DNA of 64,000 bases from assembly GCA_001247695.2 (NCBI GenBank), contig LGRX02027802.1:1-64000 (forward strand). Direction: 5' to 3'. Below the pieces are notes generated by a model, which worked only from the letters and a program-made list of their open reading frames with translations, did not search any database and was not told the DNA's origin. This DNA is from Cymbomonas tetramitiformis. Lineage: Eukaryota > Chlorophyta > Pyramimonadophyceae > Pyramimonadales > Pyramimonadaceae. Each line of letters opens with the position of its first letter. Position 1 is the first letter of the stretch. This document shows positions 1 through 62,832 of this stretch, one piece after another. The translations under genes and the position numbers were made by a program.

Positions 1-396
1 GTCTGATTGTGAGTCGCGCTTTGGCCAGAGGCCGTTCATTAGCTAATGAACGGTTCCCGCAGCCAAAGTGTCTAATTGAGAGTCGCGCTTTGGCCAGAGG
101 CCGTTCATTAGCTAATGAACGGTTCCCGCAGCCAAAGTGTCTAATTGTGAGTCGCGCTTTGGCCGGAGGCCGTTCATTAGCTAATGAACGGTTCCCGCAG
201 CCAAAGTGTCTCTTGTGAGTCGCGCTTTGGCCAGAGGCCGTTCATTAGCTAATGAACGGTTCCCGCAGCCAAAGTGTCTGATTGTGAGTCGCGCTTTGGC
301 CAGAGGCCGTTCATTAGCTAATGAACGGTTCCCGCAGCCAAAGTGTCTGATTGTGAGTCGCGCTTTGGCCAGAGGCCGTTCATTAGCTAATGAACG
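1..396. repeat. Tandem array A: 69-bp units around a perfect 20-bp palindrome
   Basis: Six units with a period of 68-69 bp are visible, and the array continues off the left edge. Each carries the perfect palindrome CGTTCATTAGCTAATGAACG, starting at 33, 102, 171, 239, 308 and 377. The spacer contains a second, weaker inverted pair (CCAAAG...CTTTGG). Units are nearly identical, so amplification is recent. The palindrome holds an ATG (CTAATG) and a TAA (AGCTAA) on each strand, which is why short repetitive reading frames appear here; I do not regard them as genes. The array lies just downstream of the splice donor of the minus-strand gene that starts at 1132, so it probably sits in that gene's intron. 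Confidence 0.95.
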
Positions 397-415
397 AGTT
401 CAAAAATAAACATAC

Positions 416-1132
416 CTGCTTCTTGCCCAAAAAGTATTTGAAGTCGAACTTGTCCTCAGATCGAAAGCTGTTTTTTAGCAAGTCCTTCACGAAGAATTCC
501 TTTCTATCTTTTTGCGACATACTGAAAATATTTTCGCGAAAAGACTGAATATCTGCGGATGAGAAAGATAGACAGCAGTGCGACTTGCAATTGCACTTAA
601 TTGTTTCTGCCATTGATATACTGTCAGCCTGCAAACGTCGCTGCTTAATACTAATTACGCCCGTATATTGTTTCTTGCGTATGTCGGATTCGTACGGTTT
701 GCGCACGACAATCTGCTTGTTTACTTCACCATTTAAACAAACAAGAGGGTCTTCATTCCTCAAGTCCAAACTTGTCTCTGAAAATTCTGTATCAAGTCTG
801 CTTTTTATCTCTTGTAAGTCAATTTCGCGCAAAGCGCGTGACCCGGAAACGCGTGAAGAATTAGAGCTAACTTCCGATCTACACGTCAAAGGCGCGTTCC
901 AAAGAACCAATTGCGTATTCGCGCTCGGGGCTGTGCTTGGAATTGGCTCATGATTGAAAAAGTCAGCCCCTATTTCCATAGAATCTTCAATAACTATTCT
1001 CGGGCACGGTTTGCAGATAATCTCGCAACCTTCATCGAAAGGAATAGAAAACATATTTTCGTCAAAATTAGCCGTCATTAGCTTATGAAGCCGTTTTTTA
1101 CGTTCTAAAAATGATATAGACTTGCGAGTCAA
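416..1132 (-). CDS. Hypothetical protein, first exon (239 codons), mobile-element-like
   Basis: The reading frame opens with ATG at 1132 and runs 239 codons to an AAGCAG|GTATGT splice donor at 415/416. Reading on would add only ten residues and stop inside the first palindrome of array A, so the exon very likely ends at the donor. Downstream exons would lie to the left, beyond the array or the window edge. The protein is basic, with no membrane segment. Near residues 180-187 is a cluster of Cys and His (C180, C182, H185, C186, C187), followed by a helical stretch rich in Arg, Lys, Phe and Ser. Such compact Cys/His clusters occur in leader regions of transposase-type proteins, but I do not recognise the family. 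It is divergent to the small ORF at 1403. Confidence 0.45.
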
Positions 1133-1402
1133 CCGAGAATTTCTATCTTACTGAATCGATCGATCCTCGATTTCAGCGCAAATGACACCAGGATATCTTA
1201 AAATCATATCCTTGATCTGAACAGACCGAATCAGGAAGCGACAGCGAATGTCATTTTTGATTAAAATTGACATCGATATTTGACATGTCATTTTTAGCCG
1301 CCAGAAATGACTTTTAATATTCTGCTAAAGTTACATCACTTTTTCAAAGTTCTTTCACACACACCCCTTTCACAGTTGACAGCCAATTTCTCTCATTTCG
1401 CA

Positions 1403-1708
1403 ATGGCGACAGCCGAAACATTCCAAGCATTGAGGGCTCAACATATTTTTCAGCTCTATCTTGGTAACAAGTGGAGCATTGTTAGAACCCTTGAAGCCGA
1501 CGATCCTCCAGACAGTTTGCAAATAGTGATTCACTCTGATGACCCTGCCGAGCAGAATGAAGAAATAATTTTTAGTTTTCCTCAGTTTACCTCTTCGACT
1601 GTACTCGGGGGTAGCCTCCTTCCTGAGAAACGCGTAGCGTACAGTATCATTGAGAACGAGACTCCAATTCTGTATTTCGTCGCTTACAGAAACAAAAGCT
1701 TACTGTGA
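1403..1708 (+). CDS. Small hypothetical protein (101 aa)
   Basis: An open frame from ATG 1403 to TGA 1708; the frame is open upstream to about 1307 but the first 32 codons there lack an ATG close to a plausible start context. The product is acidic in the middle (runs of Asp and Glu around residues 35-55), has no signal peptide or transmembrane segment, and ends in a hydrophobic/basic tail. No family recognised. It lies between the divergent minus-strand exon and palindrome array B and may belong to the same mobile locus. It could also be a chance frame. Confidence 0.3.
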   Translation: MATAETFQALRAQHIFQLYLGNKWSIVRTLEADDPPDSLQIVIHSDDPAEQNEEIIFSFPQFTSSTVLGGSLLPEKRVAYSIIENETPILYFVAYRNKSLL

Positions 1709-1975
1709 TCGAATTAGACAGCGCAAACTTTGAGGAAACCTTAAGCCTTCCAAAGCACACAAATCGGCTTTTGGCTTTTCAAAGTTTGAAAACTAGGCAG
1801 CAGAAGAAAATAAAAGCAGAGAATTCTATCTAGCGAGCTATGTAAACCAGGCGTGGAAAGCGTCGATTACAGCTCCTTTCTGGCAAAGCAGGAGGCCAGC
1901 GGCAGTGATCGATGACCTCGGACTTGCTGGCGAGATACCTGTTGTAGAGGCTTCGGTACGTCCCTTTCATGCCCT

Positions 1976-2545
1976 GCGCCTGGACCGGGGCGGAAAGCGT
2001 TCATTAGCTAATGAACGCTTTCGGCCCCGAAACGCGCGCCCTGCGCCTGGACCGGGGCGGAAAGCGTTCATTAGCTAATGAACGCTTTCGGCCTCGAAAC
2101 GCGCGCCCTGCGCCCTGACCGGGGCGGAAAGCGTTCATTAGCTAATGAACGCTTTCGGCCTCGAAACGCGCGCCCTGCGCCTGGACCGGGGCGGAAAGCG
2201 TTCATTAGCTAATGAACGCTTTCGGCCCGAAACGCGCGCCCTGAGCCTGGACCGGGGCGAAAGGCGTTCATTAGCTAATGAACGCCTCGAACCGCGCGCC
2301 CTGAGCCCTGACCGGGGCGGAAGGCGTTCATTAGCTAATGAACGCCTTCCGCCTCGAACCGCGCGCCCTGAGCCCTGACCGGGGCGGAAGGCGTTCATTA
2401 GCTAATGAACAGTTTCCGCCTCGAACCGCGCGCCCTGAGCCCTGACCGGGACGGAAGGCGTTCATTAGCTAATGAACGCCTTCCGCCTCAAACCGCGCGC
2501 CCTGAGCCCTGACCGGAGCGGAAGGCGTTCATTAGCTAATGAACA
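1976..2545. repeat. Tandem array B: 67-bp units around the same 20-bp palindrome
   Basis: Nine palindromes start at 1998, 2065, 2132, 2199, 2265, 2325, 2392, 2459 and 2526. The core is the same CGTTCATTAGCTAATGAACG as in array A, but the spacer is GC-rich and unrelated. In units 1-4 the arms next to the core read GGAAAG/CTTTC; in units 6 and 8 they read GGAAGG/CCTTCC, so both sides changed together and the palindrome persists. Unit 6 forms a perfect 38-bp palindrome. Units 7 and 9 have a changed right arm (GAACAGTTTC). Unit 9 contains the ATG of the following gene. Confidence 0.95.
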
Positions 2546-5515
2546 GTTTCGTCTTGTCCCAGGCTGCCAGGAGAACGGATGTGCAGCGTGCTGCCGAACG
2601 CGCCCTTCAAGGACCTAGTGGCTCCAGAGCTTTTACTGGAGCGGGCGCCAATGTGGATATGTCTCAAGTGGCCACCCCATCTGAGGCAAGGAAGGCAGCC
2701 GAGGTGGCTGCACATGGGTGGCATGCTAAGCTAACAGTGGAGCATGCAGCAAAGATGGATTATGAGGAGAAAGCAAAGCTGTGCAGGCAAATCGAGATGG
2801 AGCACCGGTGGCCGAACCCGATGGATTTCGACGAGGCCGCGGAGAAAGGGAGTGTGTTTCGTCTCCCCATTGAATGCCTGTACCACGCGACGGGGTACGA
2901 GGCCTGCCGGGATCAAGAGAGGGGCTGGGTGAACGAGATCAAGTCCAGCAGGAAGGAGAACCCGTGGGCCCCTTTCAATGCGGGTCTTGTTGCGATCGAC
3001 GATGTCAAAACCCGTGCCGAATTCTCCCTGAAAAAAGCTCTCAGGGGAGAATACAGAGGCAAGGTTTTTGGGCACCAGCACTGTTATCAAGCCACCGACG
3101 AGTGTCACGAGGAAATCCCGTTGGAGATAGCCTTCGCGTTCTTCGAGAGCAAGATCTACATCGGTCTCACGCCTGACATGATTCGGTTCTTAGGCGAGAT
3201 GCAGAACCAAATCGACCAGAAGACGAAAGGCAAAGACAACACTCAGTTCATGCAAGGGCTTCGTTCGACCCTTTTCGAAAAGCATGGGGTCGTGTACAAG
3301 GTTTACCGAGAAGCGTTGATCTCCGAGTTCGTCGCCGGTGTCCCCGAGGACACCGAAGAGGGTACCCCTTATCAACCTGGGTATTACGAGGTCGGAGGGC
3401 TGGTGCAAAAAATGGCGGAGTTCGAATCAGAGCATGGATTTGCAGTCCCGGATATCGAGAAATATCCCAAGGGATTCCAGTACATCGAGAATGTGGAGAC
3501 GTCTGAGCGCGAGGGAGACCTTGAGACCCTCCCTGAGGTAGAGGTGACGGTGAAGACGCTGGAGGATGACATCAACGCTCACCTCGATCGGGTCACAAGT
3601 TGGTACCACGTAATGTCTCACTTGAACCAGTCGACGGAGACGCATGTGAAGGAAGTAGCGATGTCCAAGCATTCTGTGTTCGGCGGCGTGCAAATCAACC
3701 ACTACTTCATGCACTGGACAATTGCCAATTTCCGGCCGCAGACGTGGGACCTCTGCGTTAGCATCATGGAGGCTTACATAAGATTTGACCTGAAGGGCAT
3801 GCAAAACCCTTTGGCTTCGAAGACCAAAAAGCGCAAGGCCTCATCTTCGCCCGCTAAGGGACCCGCCAAGAAAGCTGGCAAAAAGGGCACCTCCAACCGA
3901 CAGGTAAATTACTTTTTACTTTTGCTTCAAACAGTGTTTACCCCCCCAAAGCATCCTTTTCTATATTTTAAGACATGCTAAAAATGTTTTTTTTACTTGC
4001 AGATGGAAGACGAGGTGCAACGAGGAGGCGGGGACCACGGAGCGGGCTCGTCTAAAGGGGCAGGCATTTTGGTGGAAGAAGCTCAGTTTCTCCACAATGC
4101 CAAATCCATGGGTATGACGTTCTGGATTAACTTGGGCGGCTTGGCGGGGGAGGCGGAGTTCGACAAGGTGGACACGTATCTGCGCCTGATTATTCAGAAG
4201 GAGTTGTCAGTAAAAGAGGGGGGCCTGATGATAAGCCAGTTCAAGAAGGAACGCATGGTGCAGAAGCACTTGGTGTCCGCGGCGGGATTGCAAACCTGGG
4301 ACGCATTCAAGGCCGAGTTCACCCCCTACTGGAGCTCCCAAGAGAAAATCGAGTCGTTGATCGGCTGCTTACCTTCAACTCAGGGGGGAGCGCGCCGGGG
4401 GGGATCTGGGGAAGTTCCGCACGCGAGCTTGAATTACGTCGAGAACGCGCGGGCGAATCTCAAAGAAGCGCAGGCGCCACGCGCGGGGCACATCCTAGGC
4501 TTGCAACAGGTCGAGGTGAAAGTCGACATCAAACTCTATCGGGAGGCGCGGACCGAGGGGCCGGAGCTTAAGGTTCCAGGAGAGGCAGGCCTTGAGGACG
4601 ACGAGCCCACACATGAGACGAACGTGCCGATGTTCCCTCGTTGGAAGATCGTCAAGGGCAGCATGAGCGATATGAAGGACGTCCCGAGGCTGCCCTTCAC
4701 GGGGACGATCATCGACTGCAATTACGCCCTTGACAAGGAGAAGACTCCCGACGCGATGACCAAGGACGAGGTGCAACCGTTCCTGGAGTCTTTCAACGCC
4801 AAGACCACCGCCCCGGCATGGACAATCGCTATCTTTTGCGGTTTCGTCCAACAAAACGATTTCCTGGAGGTGATTGACAATTACTGCTCCGGCCGCGCGG
4901 AGCGGTTCTTCTGGCACAAGCAGAACGTGAACATGAACCCCAACAGGACCGTGCGCTACAATGACGTTGAATGTGGCGTCCTGGGGTACCATGTAAAGAG
5001 CGATGCCCAGGGGGAGTCTTCTAAAAAGCCGGAGTGGATGTTCAACTTTGATACTGGAGAAGGTGAACGTGTGAGCCGCGCGTCACTTTTGCGCGGCTTC
5101 CCGGTTGTGCACCAGATGTTCAAACGCGACAACAAAGCCGTGAATAACCATCAGAAACCCCAAGCTCTGTTGATCGATGGAGCTGATCCAGTGCCACATG
5201 CTCGGTGACAATCCGGGCAAGATGGATGAGAACGGCCATCCACTCAACTGGATTCTCGACGCTTGCTGCGGCGTCGGCTCGACGTCCATGGCCGCCATGA
5301 GGTGTGGTATGAACGCGATCGGCTTCGACCACGACCAGTTCATGGTCAGCTCTGCGCAGCAACGGCTGATCAATTTCGACAACGAGCCCGATCAGGACGC
5401 CGAGACGAAGCCAAAACAGAAGAGCGAACCGACGGCGAAGGGCAAGGAAGCGGCCACTGCCGAATCTGAGGAAGATGAGAATGATGAAGATGAGGAAGAA
5501 GAGAATGATGAATAA
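2539..5515 (+). CDS. Beta-class DNA methyltransferase-like protein with a long unrecognised N-terminus; frameshifted near the 3' end
   Basis: Exon 1 is 2539-3903. An intron of 99 nt (3904-4002, CAG|GTAAAT...TTGCAG) has phase 0, and exon 2 begins ATGGAAGAC. Residues 1 to about 430 are unrecognised and globular, followed by a Lys/Ala/Ser-rich linker. From about 4,640 the frame looks like a permuted (beta-class) N4/N6 methyltransferase: D-C-N-Y where the family has D-P-P-Y, then a W-x-K-Q-N...R-T-V-R-Y block, then NHQKP, a variant of the H-x-T-Q-K-P motif. The S-adenosylmethionine loop (DACCGVGSTSMAAMR...IGFDHD) follows, but in the next frame (5177-5515). The shift lies at about 5,175-5,180, and one surplus base would explain it. 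The C-terminus is acidic and ends in Glu/Asp runs. The start codon lies in the last palindrome of array B. Activity is doubtful because of the altered catalytic motif. The family assignment is by motif order only. Confidence 0.7.
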
Positions 5516-5539
5516 AATAGTAGGATTTGTCGACCGCCC

Positions 5540-5558
5540 TGACTGATAGTATCAGTCA
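5540..5558. terminator. Short hairpin after the methyltransferase-like gene
   Basis: TGACTGATA-G-TATCAGTCA is a perfect 9-bp inverted repeat with a 1-bp centre, 25 bp after the stop codon. It may be a 3'-UTR structure or a palindromic remnant. A transcription-termination role is not established in nuclear genes. Confidence 0.3.
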
Positions 5559-5913
5559 TGCCTCGACGGTATAGGGTGAAAAGTACTCTACTCGTAAACA
5601 TTTGAATAAAGAATGATACATGTATGCATATTTCGGTGTTTTCATTGTACGCATACTGCACTTTTCTACCGTGTTGCCTTTATGTATCCCTATTTCGCGC
5701 ATAAATATCACTAAACCCTGATTTTTTTGAAATATATATAAATCCAAAAATGACATATGATAATATCATTTTCATCGAATAGTGTGTTATGTACGCATGG
5801 ACGGATACATGTGTACTGCATATGTACTATCACCGTACGTTTCTGGTACATTGGGACCTTATCAGTACCCAAATAATGTACCTTGCATGTACCCAAACGT
5901 AATGGATGGGTAC

Positions 5914-6079
5914 GTATGTTATTTCTGCACCCAACTTTGGCTTCATTCTTGTACTTTTGTGTACTTGCTCGCGGCGGATGCTGGGTACAATTAGGGTATA
6001 CATGAACCATCCCGTTACTAAAATCCGCCGCGAGCAAGTACAAGAATGAAGCCAAAGTTGGGTGCAGAAATAACATATG
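5914..6079. repeat. Foldback: two ~55-bp inverted arms around a ~45-bp loop
   Basis: The left arm (5914-5978) and right arm (6024-6079) are near-perfect reverse complements. The left arm has an extra 10-bp TTTTGTGTAC beside GTAC. The inner end of the right arm (CCGCCGCGAGCAAGTACAA) recurs at about 8,163-8,180, linking this block to the GTAC-rich array further right. The sequence from 5,560 to 5,913 is AT-rich with scattered GTAC words and shows no gene. Confidence 0.8.
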
Positions 6080-6886
6080 TACTCAGGCTTGGTATATGCA
6101 AGTGCATGCGAGTACAATTTACACTTTTCCCGACAGCTTCAGGTACAACCCAGGCGCACGTGTACCCAAGCGAACATCACCAAAACGCAAAAAAAGTCAC
6201 CAAACCCCCCAAAAACAAGTTGGCCTCATTTTAAAGCGCACGACGAGCGCAAAAAATAATCGAGTGCACGACGAGCCCGAAAAACATTTTAGTTGCACGA
6301 AAAATGGGCAAACGTGTTGCACCAAAAAAAAAGGAACAGAGAAAGAAAATCGTACCTCAATTAGGATGACCGCCCGAGTAGAGCGGTGGGGTGGAATAAT
6401 CGATGACGATCGCGATCGATACGTACGTGACCTGCGTGCCTGCGATCCCCAACCCGCGAGCGCGAGCGTCATGCGGTGGATTATTCCATCTCCAATCGTC
6501 CGATGGCATCGCATGGCATGGCACACGTTTCGCAGAATTCGTCATCGTCATCGTTATCGTCGATCGTGCTCGCGTGACGAGGACGTGCTGTGACTTCTCA
6601 CGCCCCCCAACGCGCAACGGGAAGTCAAGGTGTCCACTGTAGGCATTTTTGCAGAATACTGTAAAAGTTCAAACTCACCGGTACAGCCGTCAACGCTTCA
6701 CATTTCACCGTCCAGCAGTGTGCAGCAGCGTGTGGTGGCCTCGCCAGCGGGTTGCATGTTATGATATTTCTCATTCTTGCTCGCTGCAATATGTCACAGG
6801 TTTGTAGTGCATGTTTTTTATATGTATATGTATTATTTTGTGTGTGCTTAGCGCGCTCATCCTTGGCATGCGCGGAACTTTGACTT
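6080..6886. other. No gene seen; GTAC words, A-rich tract, CGATCG-rich block
   Basis: About 800 bp with no convincing reading frame. It contains an A-rich stretch near 6,180-6,340 and a block rich in CGATCG and CGTCATCG words at 6,390-6,590. Two GGAATAATC/GATTATTCC words in opposite orientation suggest another decayed foldback. Confidence 0.5.
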
Positions 6887-27700: not shown

Positions 27701-30586
27701 TCAACATAAAAACACGAGGCACCACAAAGATAGAAGCGCCAGGCTCCACACTCCAAGCAACCAGCCCGTGCACAACAGCCGACACAGACCCACACCAGTA
27801 TATGACGGGAACGTGACAAAAGTATTCCCTCGTCGACTCCGTCCGGTCCTCAGAGCCCCTATGTATTCCCCGTGGAAACTCCCGTCTGGTCCTCAGAGCC
27901 CCTATGTATTCCCCATCGACTCCGTCTGGTCCCTAAGAGCCCCTATGTATTCCCCCCGTCGACTCAAGTCTGGTCCTCAGAGGAGAGCCCCTATGTATTC
28001 CCCGTCGACTCCGTCTGGTCCTCAGAGCCCCTATATGTATTCCCTCGTCGACTCCGTCTGGTCCTCAGAGCCCCTATGTATTCCCCCCTCGACTCCGTCC
28101 TGGTCCTCAGAGCACCTAGTATTCCCCCTCGACTCCGTCTGGTCCTAAGAGCCTTATGTATTCCCCGTCGGCTCGTCTGGTCCTCAGAGCCCTATGTAAT
28201 TCCCCCTCGACTCCGTCTGGTCCTCAGAGCACCTATGTATTCCCCCTCGACTCCGTCTGGTCCTAAGAGCCTGTCCTTGTTCCCCCTCGACTCCGTCTGG
28301 TCGCAGAGCCCCTATGTATTCCCCGTTGACTCCGTCTGGTCCTCAGAGAGGCCCTATGCATTCCCACGTCGACTCCGTCCGGTCCTCAGAGCCCCTATGT
28401 ATTCCCCCGACTCCGTCTGGTCTCAGAGCCCTATGTATTCCGCTCGACTCCGTGGTCCTCAGAGCCCTATGTATTTCCCCGTCGACTCCGTCTGGTTCTC
28501 AGAGCCCTATGTATTCCCTCGTCGACTCCCGTCCGGTCCTCAGAGCCCTATGTATTCCCCACGTCGACTCCGTCCGGTCCTCAGAGCCTATGTATTCCCC
28601 GTGACTCCGTCTGGTCCTCAGAGCCCTATGTATTCCCCCCTCGACTCCGTCTGGTCACCAGAGCCCCTATGTATTCCCCCGTCGACTCCGTCTGGTTCTC
28701 AGAGCCCCTATGTATTCCCCCGTCGACTACGTCTGGTCCTCAGAGCCCCTATGTATTCCCCCCTCGACTCCGTCTGATCCCAAGAGCCCTATGTATGAAA
28801 TATGAGCCAGAGCGCGTTCTGGTGACGCGCCCCCCTGCGGGCTTGTATAGTTTGCATAATGTGCTTTTAAGCAACGGCAGCACGGAGGCAATAACGTACA
28901 CTGGATGACATAAGAAATGCTGGCCAAGGCCAGCCCACCAGTACCCCAGTGGATGAAGAATTTTGTGCGGAACAGCAAAGCATCCGTCAAGTAGGGGGGT
29001 GGGCGAGGCCCGGTGCACTGCTACACATGCAGATAACACAGACACACCTGTGGCAAATCTCACTAGGTTGAGATAGCTGAAGTGACGCGCAAGTGAAACC
29101 TTAACACGCATTAAACGTCTGTGCTGCAGTATGAAAACGGATCAGGATCGACCAAGTGGCAAAAGTTCCTTCGTGCACCGCTTTATCGCGACGCAACTGT
29201 TGTCGCCACGCAATTGGCTCCCCCCACCATATTGGGGCTATGTAACAGGCTGGAAACACTTGATGACAATACGTATCCCCAATACGAGGGCCTCGGACAC
29301 TCCTACCAGATAAGGGCTCGTGGGGATGGCTCCAAGTGCCGAGCTTTCGAGCGCCACTGCCACCGCATCACTTGCGCATGAAGGGCCCAGGCTGTCTGAA
29401 AGCGGTTTCGACGCGTCGAAGCCGCTTGCAGACAGTGTCTTCAGTGTGGAAAGTTTTCTATTCGCGTTTTTGGTGTTGATCTTCGATGCGGAGAGCGTGA
29501 ACAGGAGTGAAGCACGCGAGCACAGAATTCGACACACGTTCCCAAGCGAGTTGAAATTCGGAAGATGAAAGCAGGATGTTGCAAAACAAGCGACAAAGAG
29601 CAGAAAGAAAATTGTCAACAGAAATTCCAGAGACACTGGGGCGTGGTAATACTAAAATCGCGAAAAGAAGATTTCGAAAGGCCTTACGTACCATCCTTTG
29701 ACTCACATGATCCCGCTGAAGTTTTCTCGCGCCGGGCAGTGGGCGCCTGGACGATGACGTTGAGACAGAGCCCTGGTCATCCAACTTCTCATGCTGCATA
29801 ATGACCTGAAAGCCCACATCCGTCGCAGACGGTCTCCATAAGGCTTTTCAACGGAAAAGGTTTTAAGCCTTGCTAGAGATGCATTTCAAGTATCTCTTGT
29901 AGGAGTCGCTTTCCAAAGTCTCGTGTAGGAGTCGCTTTCCAAGTGTCTCGCCGCTCAAAAAGGAGAGAGTAGTACTCGTCAAGACAAACCTCCCGGCTGA
30001 GGGGGGATATGTTAGACTGCCTGAGATGTGCCTCCAAGTGGGTGGAGGCTAGGGCATTCTGAGATAGGGAGACTGGGGTCTTCTGAGACAAACCAACGGG
30101 GGTGGGGGTTCGGGTCATCCTGGGAAAGGCATCCAGGAAGAGGCTAAACTCTCGAAGGCGACAGCCTGAAGTGAAGTGGCAATGCATTGATTGTAGCGCG
30201 TGATTCGAAAAGCTATAGCATCGCACGCTAAAAATACGATATCAGAAATAGGTTACACACTGTTTTAAGAGACCAAACTGAAGCGTTATACTTGCATGGC
30301 CTCGAACTCTTATGCGAAAAGGTCACTATCAGCCAGGCTGGCGGGACAGGGTAGCATGCGCTGTCAGTGGCAGCACCTCTGATAGCTTCTCAGCTTTGTC
30401 GCGCAAGCTGAACTCTGCATTTGATAGCACGCTGTCGAGTTGAAACTGTGTTTCTAGAGCTGCAGACTCATCCTGCTGAGCGACAGCCTCCGCCTGAGCG
30501 TTCATCCCTTTGCGGATTTCCTTCAGGTCGCCAAGGGCCTGCAGGATGATTTTCCCCACGTCCATCGCTTGGTCGTACGACGACAT
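18796..30586 (-). CDS. IQCH-like protein (IQ motif, ATP-grasp-like C-terminal region), multi-exon
   Basis: Exon blocks read right to left from ATG 30586: 30586-~30330; possibly ~29835-29695 (donor GTACGTAAG); 26833-26684; 25842-25582; 24520-~24275; 23988-23918; 23743-23525; 23320-22986; 22643-22460; 22220-22137; 21994-21869; 21614-21461; 21028-20246; 19804-19552; 18892-18796. The last exon is not found. The N-terminus resembles the IQCH opening (V-G-K-I-I-L-Q...). The exon at 23.3 kb holds an IQ motif (IQRHARGHVTR) and a degenerate second one. The exon at 21.0-20.2 kb has an ATP-grasp-like core (W-I-L-K-I-D-D-E-x-N-G-R-G). The exon at 19.8 kb contains R-R-F-Y-V-M-N-D-F-I-S-H-x-N-L-A. IQCH is a calmodulin-binding protein family of ciliated cells. 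In exon 21994-21869 a G is missing near 21,920, breaking the frame; a second G may be missing in the G-run near 21,988. These look like base errors or early decay. Confidence 0.75.
19874..19992. repeat. 44-bp tandem repeat (about 2.7 copies)
   Basis: The unit CGACCTGTGGAGTACTAGGC plus 24 more bases repeats almost exactly. It lies in the intron between the last two large IQCH-like exons. Confidence 0.85.
21091..21236. repeat. 24-bp tandem repeat (about 6 copies) in an in-frame intron
   Basis: Units of GAGGTGAGACTCATCCACCT plus CAAG. The array lies in the 432-nt intron 21029-21460 of the IQCH-like gene. Intron and repeat unit are both multiples of three with no stop on the coding strand, so retained transcripts would add repeats of the type S-L-T-S-L-R-W-M. 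Confidence 0.9.
24101..24260. repeat. 26-28-bp tandem repeat (six units)
   Basis: Units of CGCACGCATAGGGGG(G)GCTCCACGTAG. The array starts immediately after the recognisable coding part of the 24.5-kb IQCH-like exon, so the donor of that exon lies in or beside the first unit. Confidence 0.9.
27077..27186. repeat. 34-bp tandem repeat (about 3 copies)
   Basis: GTGTGCAGCCAGTCTAGTCT plus 14 bases, nearly identical copies, in an upstream intron of the IQCH-like gene. Confidence 0.9.
27838..28795. repeat. ~38-40-bp minisatellite, about 25 copies
   Basis: Unit GTCGACTCCGTCTGGTCCTC followed by AGAGCCCCTATGTATTCCCC, with many small deletions and single-base changes between copies. It sits in an IQCH-like intron. 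Long frames across it are repeat artefacts because unit length drifts. Confidence 0.95.
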
Positions 30587-49703: not shown

Positions 49704-49800
49704 TGGCATGGCATGGCATGGCTGATGGCATGGCATGGCATGGCATGGCATGGCATGGCATGGCATGGCATGGCTGATGGCTGATGGCATGGCATGGTCA
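49704..49800. repeat. (TGGCA)n microsatellite
   Basis: TGGCATGGCA-type pentanucleotide repeats interrupted by GGCTGATGG. A related, more diverged array lies at about 55,797-55,890 on the other side of the transposon nest. Confidence 0.9.
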
Positions 49801-49995
49801 TGAAGGATACAATCGTGCCGCACAGGCCGCGCGCCCCCAACAGTCGCGCCGCCCATAGCCGCGCGATGCCCCGACAGAGAGCGCACCGCAACGGCAGATT
49901 GGGGGAAAAGTTGTATCCTTCGTGTTTCACTCTTCGCCGCCTACGTGGCACCGTAGGGATTCAGTACTTTGTACCGCACCGATGCTGCCATGAAT

Positions 49996-61498: not shown

Positions 61499-62832
61499 CA
61501 GGGTGGCTCCTGGCGACAACGTCTTAACCCCTAAACTGCGGAAGGAATTTCGGGGTTTTGAAAATTTGGGTTTATTTACAATATCTTTGGCGTAAGTGTC
61601 CTGACTCGACTTTTGAAACTAGTCTCGGAAAGGTCTTCTCAAGGCGAATCGCATGCAAACCTTGAAAATGCATGACATCTGATATCGATGACGTGATTGT
61701 CAACTGAAAAATGTTGATGGATGTGCACATCGTTCACAATTTAAGCCCTATTATTGACCCTAGACCTCCGGGTATAATCTTACCAAGTGCTCAACATGCG
61801 GTTAGGGCTACGTATACTATCAGGGGTTTGTAACACTATGGCATATGTGCCCTAGATGTAACTCACTTATGGCCAAGCTAAAATCGAGTGCGTGTCGGTA
61901 AATAGTAAGAACATCGTCGCAACATGGTTGCTCCCAAGTGCATGGTTGCACCCTACGTTTCTAGACGGGTTCAATACACGTGTTGAACACGTATTGGAGG
62001 CATATTGGAGGCATATATATTGAAGACGGTATGCTAATATCTGGACATTCCAATACACGTGTAACATATTGGCCAAACTATTGAACCGCGATCAGCCTGG
62101 ACACAGCGAAAATGAGTATGCTAGCATGGGCACCCAAATGGTGTCAGACTCACCCACTAGCACTTGGTATCATCTAAGGAAGGGTCTAGCGTTATGGGGA
62201 CAAGTTTTCACGGCATTTGGACGCGTATCGCAGAAGTCGGTTCTGGGGGGCTTTTTGAATTGGGGCCCCGATGTATTGAAATAAGGCAAAACGATTGGAG
62301 GGGTGTTCAATATGTCTGCAACCGCCCGCAACACACGTATTGAACATGTGTTGAACACATGTTGAAACATTCACGCATAAGGAATCGTTCAATACATGTG
62401 CAATATGTCTACAATCAGATGAATCATTCAACACGTTTGCAATATATGTGTCGAACACATATTGAAACATTCCCTCATGCAGAATATCTTTAATACATGT
62501 GCAATATGTCTACAATCAGAGTGAATTATGCAACACATGACTGCATGGGGTAACTATGCTTCTATAAACGCTTTACGCGTAAATCTCAAATGGCCTGAAA
62601 CACGTAAATTACGCGTAAATTACGTGTACCCTGTTTTAGCACGATTTTACGCGAATGACGTAAAATCTGAGATTTTACGCGATTTCGTGTCCAGCGCGAG
62701 ACTTCGTTCAGACTACAGTCAACAGTGTCACAGATTTGCTAATGAGATCAGATGCGTTGATGCGGCCGTTGTCCTTTCTTTTGGCAGCCAGGGTGTTCCG
62801 TCTCCGGGCGAGGGACAACTCTATTATTAAGT
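61499..62832. repeat. Non-coding region with inverted CACGTGTTGAACACG words
   Basis: Irregular repeats of AATACACGTGTTGAACACGT and related CAATATGTCTACAATCAG words occupy about 61,965-62,535, in both orientations. From 62,567 to 62,680 the sequence is rich in TTACGCGTAAA words. No convincing gene. Confidence 0.6.

Follow-up and report, generated by a model that had tools for sequence, protein, structure and literature searches.

The first 2,545 nucleotides of the window, by which we mean the whole stretch of 64,000 nucleotides of Cymbomonas tetramitiformis DNA that was analysed (C18668:1-64000), carry two tandem arrays, A and B, built on one 20-bp dyad core, CGTTCATTAGCTAATGAACG. We find that both arrays are parts of a single mobile element: a ~9 kb DNA transposon of a DUF7869 group, whose right part occupies window 1-5787 and whose left part lies beyond the contig start. 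The interpretation that we put forward, and to which comparison of related copies lends about an even chance, is that the arrays gather, within introns, many copies of a dyad site at which a dimeric regulator, probably encoded by the element itself, would bind and control both genes of the element together. Coordinates are collected in Table 1.

Within window 1-2545, the core has 13 exact matches and two matches with one mismatch (at 2392 and 2526); no match to the 20-mer occurred in 100 dinucleotide shuffles, and none is expected by chance. Since the contig begins inside array A, this array is incomplete in the window. A sequence-only reading of this DNA had claimed that the two arrays share an identical core despite unrelated spacers, with the core held constant while the spacers vary, and both statements are borne out by the 15 matches and by the spacer alignments. 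Specifically, local alignment of the A and B spacers of this element family (family 1) scores 11, compared with 12.5 +/- 2.1 for shuffled spacers (1624 of 2000 shuffles score at least as high), and global alignment scores 0, which 214 of 2000 shuffles equal or better. The spacers therefore do not align as those of a single diverged array would. The count of 15 units with the core also stands, but the alteration is not confined to the last unit as had been claimed, since two B units carry a mismatch.

Across the 851.7-Mb assembly (25,745 contigs), the exact 20-mer occurs 9,729 times and the same sequence written backwards, used as a control, 0 times, so the core is by no means restricted to this locus. 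The flanks of these copies are those of array A (C...G) in 5,148 cases and of array B (G...C) in 3,671, giving 8,819 of 9,729; the remaining 910 are unassigned and include array end units such as window 377-396 (flanks C...A). The earlier suggestion that the palindrome is itself mobile, a mini-element multiplied along with two different host sequences, is not sustained by these data. Both contexts belong to one transposon, as two of its introns, and mobility of the palindrome on its own was rejected on the strength of the 8,819 copies with the flanks of this element. Independent host minisatellites were likewise rejected, given that the copies read carry the two arrays as parts of one element (the contigs C39 and C111 reach one array each). 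Introners have the size of an intron and insert into a wide range of host genes; mobile introns of this type were rejected because, in the copies read, the arrays occupy introns of the element's own genes, copies elsewhere not having been searched for. A viral origin was set aside too: the viral contig collections scanned contain no copy of the 20-mer, and none of 32 stretches that fitted a transposase pattern was confirmed. The bacterial and archaeal genome contigs of the collections scanned contain no copy either.

Among the best 40 of 2,278 candidate matches, window 3900-6500 matches 39 other places at 99% identity, and 38 of these 39 end at window 5786-5792. Of ten copies retrieved, nine include both termini; all nine have near identical 27-bp terminal inverted repeats, and eight are flanked by a 4-bp target site duplication (CAGT, CAGG, CATC, AATT, TTTA, TACA, AACT, and TAAG), the exception being C18028, which has none. 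The C25475 copy measures 8,984 bp. Two genes diverge from a short region (window 1079-1402), and the full copies read contain about 12 to 21 sites per element, with array size differing between copies. The element group is abundant and looks recently active. A second copy on C70 (C70:13416-15041; L013, L014) has array B separated from array A by only ~530 bases and seems to have lost the intervening promoter region.

In copy L012, gene 1 comprises exon 1, a GT-AG intron with array A, a second short intron, and the exon encoding DUF7869. The array-A intron is seen whole in copies L011 and L012, and the spliced gene of L012, a natural copy, is open over 663 codons. The public protein CYMTET_15056 (P0001) spans the same intron and is spliced as we inferred for gene 1. 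Protein matches to CYMTET sequences reach 97% identity and agree with Cymbomonas tetramitiformis as the host. Exon 3 is open over 619 codons in four of nine copies. Gene 1 of L011 matches DUF7869 (PF25273) at 8.7e-49, with 166.2 bits against a curated cut-off of 26, and P0001, P0007, and P0009 also exceed that cut-off. Candidate catalytic residues of a DDE/D transposase are invariant in nine rows, namely D (VIIDGM), D (VQLDN), and E/D (HTHENID), with N in NID in one row. The AlphaFold model of the protein is poor (mean predicted local distance difference test, pLDDT, 47.7); a Foldseek search with this model gave no match at E <= 0.001, and a search of solved structures gave 0 matches. The gene 1 product is presumably the transposase. 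Within its intron 1, a tRNA-like stretch adjoins array A (L012 4320-4400, on C62; a similar stretch occurs in the C25475 translation), possibly as an insertion resembling a short interspersed nuclear element.

Gene 2 lies within the same element as both arrays, which upholds the linkage of the core to a methyltransferase-like gene that the sequence-only reading had noticed. In eight of nine other copies, its exon 3 reads through 509 codons without interruption. This linkage leads to an explanation in which the core is the target of the methylase-like protein and serves as a self-recognition mark. In its favor, gene 2 appears related to the N6/N4 DNA methylases (PF01555 at E <= 0.1 in nine of ten relatives, best 7.1e-8; P0016, at 22.0 bits, lies under the curated cut-off of 26.7), and the motifs HQKP and DACCGVGST, the latter a candidate SAM-binding motif, are retained among the aligned relatives. 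However, the usual catalytic motif of these enzymes, (D/N/S)PP(Y/W), is absent from all 10 aligned relatives, which have D-x-x-Y without PP instead, and the gene 2 of family 2 also lacks PP (ILDVIY). We consequently give the marking hypothesis very little credence. The AlphaFold model of the gene 2 protein has a mean pLDDT of 34.1, and the best match in the solved-structure search, a DpnA methylase, reaches only 0.075. As judged from these alignments, the protein is perhaps a methylase relative that may be inactive.

We then turn to the conservation of the core among family 1 copies, for which units were recognized from a stretch of spacer without reference to the core, and only units between two recognizable anchors were counted. 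Core sites were changed at 7 of 1,700 positions in array A (85 units) and 32 of 1,760 in array B (88 units), compared with 81 of 2,890 and 163 of 2,728 for the other sites, respectively. When distinct units only are used, the core and other changes are 5/440 vs 39/748 (A) and 17/560 vs 78/868 (B). The exact 20-mer is present in 79 of 85 A units and 61 of 88 B units (80 and 60 in an alignment-based count of intact cores). This lower rate of change in the core than in the rest of the unit supports a regulator-binding site.

A further possibility is that the site acts in RNA, where each intron unit would fold into a hairpin that affects splicing or yields small RNAs. The C25475 introns do fold more stably than shuffled sequence (-455 vs -309 and -399 vs -244 kcal/mol, with 10 mononucleotide shuffles each). 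Yet the would-be loop, that is, the dyad center (AGCT, GGCC), is as invariant as the arms, which is expected of a DNA site rather than of a hairpin loop; the array-B dyad of family 2 has a center of one base; and arm covariation in array B of family 1 is weak (A/T 51, G/T 29, G/C 20, A/C 8, G/gap 1). Taken together, a role at the RNA level appears highly improbable.

The placement of the arrays in family 1 is matched in two further families of the element, 2 and 3, where intron 1 of gene 1 and intron 1 of gene 2 each carry one; in family 2 the introns stand at corresponding places. Family 2 is represented by P0007, which is 69% identical to the gene 1 query over 43% of the query and is matched at 97-100% identity by at least 74 places, of which 66 lack an internal stop (the best 74 of 3,733 candidates). 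The copy read has eight cores CTCATTAGGTTAATGAG in 93-bp units in gene 1 intron 1 and four cores CTCATTAGGCTAATGAG in 144-bp units in gene 2 intron 1, with the consensus TGCTCATTAGG(T or C)TAATGAG; its identity to family 1 is 73/205 in gene 1 exon 1, 78/146 in gene 1 exon 2, and 47/172 in gene 2 exon 1. Family 3 is represented by P0025, a methylase relative found at six places at 87-100% identity, the other 92 listed being at ~57% (the best 98 of 2,896). In the family 3 copy read (C818), gene 1 intron 1 has five cores in ~68-bp units (four GTATCATTGGCCAATGATAC and one TATCATTAGCTAATGATA), and gene 2 intron 1 has six cores TCATTAGCTAATGA, five of them within GTATCATTAGCTAATGATAC, in ~67-bp units; identity to family 1 is 96/206 in gene 1 exon 1 and 47/181 in gene 2 exon 1. 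The spacers of its arrays (A3 and B3) align neither with each other nor with those of family 1, and among the other spacer pairs only B2 with A3 is slightly above chance (21 of 400 shuffles). By eye, the transposase exon of family 3 (L045 3-1154) is very like the metagenome protein P0006, which is 83% identical to family 1, in contrast to its gene 2, which is ~57% identical to family 1; genes 1 and 2 of this family may have differing evolutionary rates or have recombined.

Comparing the cores, the half-site TCATT(A/G)G persists in all three families. The bases outside it are CGT/ACG in family 1 and GTA/TAC in family 3, each alike in both arrays, and family 2 has TGC on the left side in both arrays. 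The dyad of family 2 is one base longer. In array A of family 3, both halves of the dyad have changed alike, and this symmetric double change suggests that the dyad symmetry itself is preserved. A persistent half-site with drifting, family-specific neighbors and retained symmetry is as expected of a site for a dimeric protein whose specificity drifts. In addition, that both genes of one element house an array in a GT-AG intron, a plan repeated in families 2 and 3 despite low protein identity, supports a regulator site.

These comparisons also bear on the protein that would bind the dyad. If a host factor did so, for example at an enhancer, insulator, or silencing boundary, the element would have captured its site. 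It would fit that the first-intron clusters flank the divergent promoter on both sides and that three families in one host share the half-site. Nevertheless, the half-site neighbors and the dyad spacing differ among families of the same host, which is not predicted for a single factor, and we regard host capture as improbable.

A single core-like box at the start codon of gene 1 had the look of a third site in family 1. One-mismatch core-like sites outside the arrays are expected at 0.005 per element, and the search of C25475 outside its arrays yielded this box, which had been noticed by eye before its test. Of 17 entries examined for it, 14 copies carry the box; of the other three, C111 ends short of it, C70b has only a site already counted, and C39 has no match. 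Near the gene 1 start, family 3 has GTATCATTGTCTTATGAAG.

Several observations weigh against a regulator site. Families 2 and 3 are each known from one copy read, and the start-codon box is only half kept in family 2 (CTTATGAAG). No known DNA-binding domain was found in the gene 1 or gene 2 protein. The units in the conservation test are related by descent, and in array A of family 1, a 20-bp frame moved rightward by a few bases is no less conserved than the core. Furthermore, arrays A and B of family 2 have ~20 bases in common leftward of the core (a likeness that 8 of 500 shuffles reach), with dissimilar right flanks, and these shared bases fit copying between arrays.

Such copying is central to a serious rival, concerted evolution without function, in which gene conversion or slippage carried one palindromic seed from intron to intron, the arrays grew around it, and the spacers turned over. 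Besides the bases common to the family 2 arrays, this would account for arrays within one element resembling each other more than those of other families and for the variation of array size among copies. Copying between arrays can give matching flanks, but it explains less easily why the spacers of families 1 and 3 have lost any residual likeness with the half-site kept. The rival is also countered by a half-site that outlasts deep protein divergence, by the symmetric change in array A of family 3, and by core sites that are less changed than other sites. We therefore hold concerted evolution to be a tentative possibility.

Under the regulator hypothesis, the dyad core would be bound by a dimer, most likely of a protein that the element itself encodes, and the bound clusters in both first introns would act as operator or enhancer clusters that control the two genes together. 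The ~12 to 21 sites per element might also serve as a sponge that senses copy number. A broader claim would be that the element has a self-regulation device new for eukaryotic transposons, with matched operator clusters, a dyad that drifts with an element-encoded and perhaps methylase-derived regulator, and copy counting by titration over about ten thousand sites; we consider this unlikely.

Among known systems, En/Spm (CACTA) elements carry TnpA-binding repeats, which are clusters of a short site bound by an element protein. The Cymbomonas element is similar in its clusters of a short repeated site, although protein binding is established for Spm and only proposed here. Moreover, its clusters are internal, in introns of both genes, whereas those of Spm adjoin the element ends, and its terminal inverted repeats, target site duplication length, and transposase all differ. 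The Sola superfamily is characterized by a transposase of its own type and a 4-bp target site duplication; the Cymbomonas element, with its 4-bp duplication, is at most a candidate member. We know of no described transposon group for DUF7869. The domain occurs in proteins of green plants and plankton metagenomes, and relatives come from many metagenomes as well as from Chara, Riccia, and Adiantum. Its methylase partner and the arrays in introns are seen in Cymbomonas elements, and the comparison with other DUF7869 hosts covers the domain alone. DUF7869 is not named in the literature searched, where coverage of subscription papers is poor, and no description of a transposon group with such anatomy is evident there, which is weak evidence as these papers are mostly outside it. 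The accessible parts of the Cymbomonas genome paper (PMC10675990) do not mention the element. Fungal DNA transposons carrying a TET/JBP gene (PMC12730594) are reported to combine likewise a transposase with a gene of DNA-modification type, the Cymbomonas pair being DUF7869 and an N6/N4-methylase-like gene. Autoregulation of Hsmar1 is reported to limit activity via the transposase and its binding sites (PMC3687335); its sites are the element ends, whereas the Cymbomonas sites are separate and internal and their regulatory role is only proposed.

Table 1. Features of the family 1 element in the window, with the family 2 copy for comparison
Feature	Position	Strand	Description
Family 1 transposon, right part	1..5787	+	From repeat boundaries and termini; left part absent (contig start)
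Array A	1..401		Period 69 bp, 5.8 copies, 20-bp dyad core per unit; within gene 1 intron 1
Gene 1 exon 1	416..1078	-	221-codon open reading frame; DUF7869 exon beyond contig start
Core-like box TCATTAGCTTATGA	1075..1088		Single; overlaps gene 1 start codon; 1 mismatch of 14
Gene 2 exon 1	1403..1955	+	Frameshifted in window copy; open over 185 codons in L012
Gene 2 intron 1	1956..2562	+	GT...AG; phase 0 in L012; contains array B
Array B	1971..2551		Period 67 bp, 8.8 copies, same 20-bp dyad core; within gene 2 intron 1
Gene 2 exon 2	2563..3903	+	No Pfam match
Gene 2 exon 3	4003..5515	+	DNA-methylase-like (N6/N4 type); window copy frameshifted near 5180-5208
Right terminal inverted repeat	5761..5787	-	AACACACTATTCGATGAAAATGATATT on minus strand
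Family 2 copy read	C25363:42973-50499		Terminal inverted repeat AACACGCTATTCGATGAAA, homologous to family 1; target duplication TTAT

The surroundings of the element are repetitive as well. The flank to its right (window 5789-6394) is itself repeated, being found on C111 at 96% identity, inverted and further along, and at C15317:33167-35467 part of gene 2 exon 3 is duplicated, with an incomplete second copy (88% identical) immediately beyond the element end. The window has many tandem repeats, among them a long 41-bp minisatellite of 24 copies (27822-28796) and repeats at 49704-49802 (TGGCA) and 62346-62536 (101 bp).

What first appeared as an odd repeat is thus likely to be where an abundant transposon group is controlled, and our results make DUF7869, a domain of obscure function in plants and plankton, a likely transposase domain. 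If the dyad is a self-encoded operator, the three families would offer ready pairs of protein and site with shifted specificity, and both DNA recognition and transposon self-restraint would be directly testable in a green alga.
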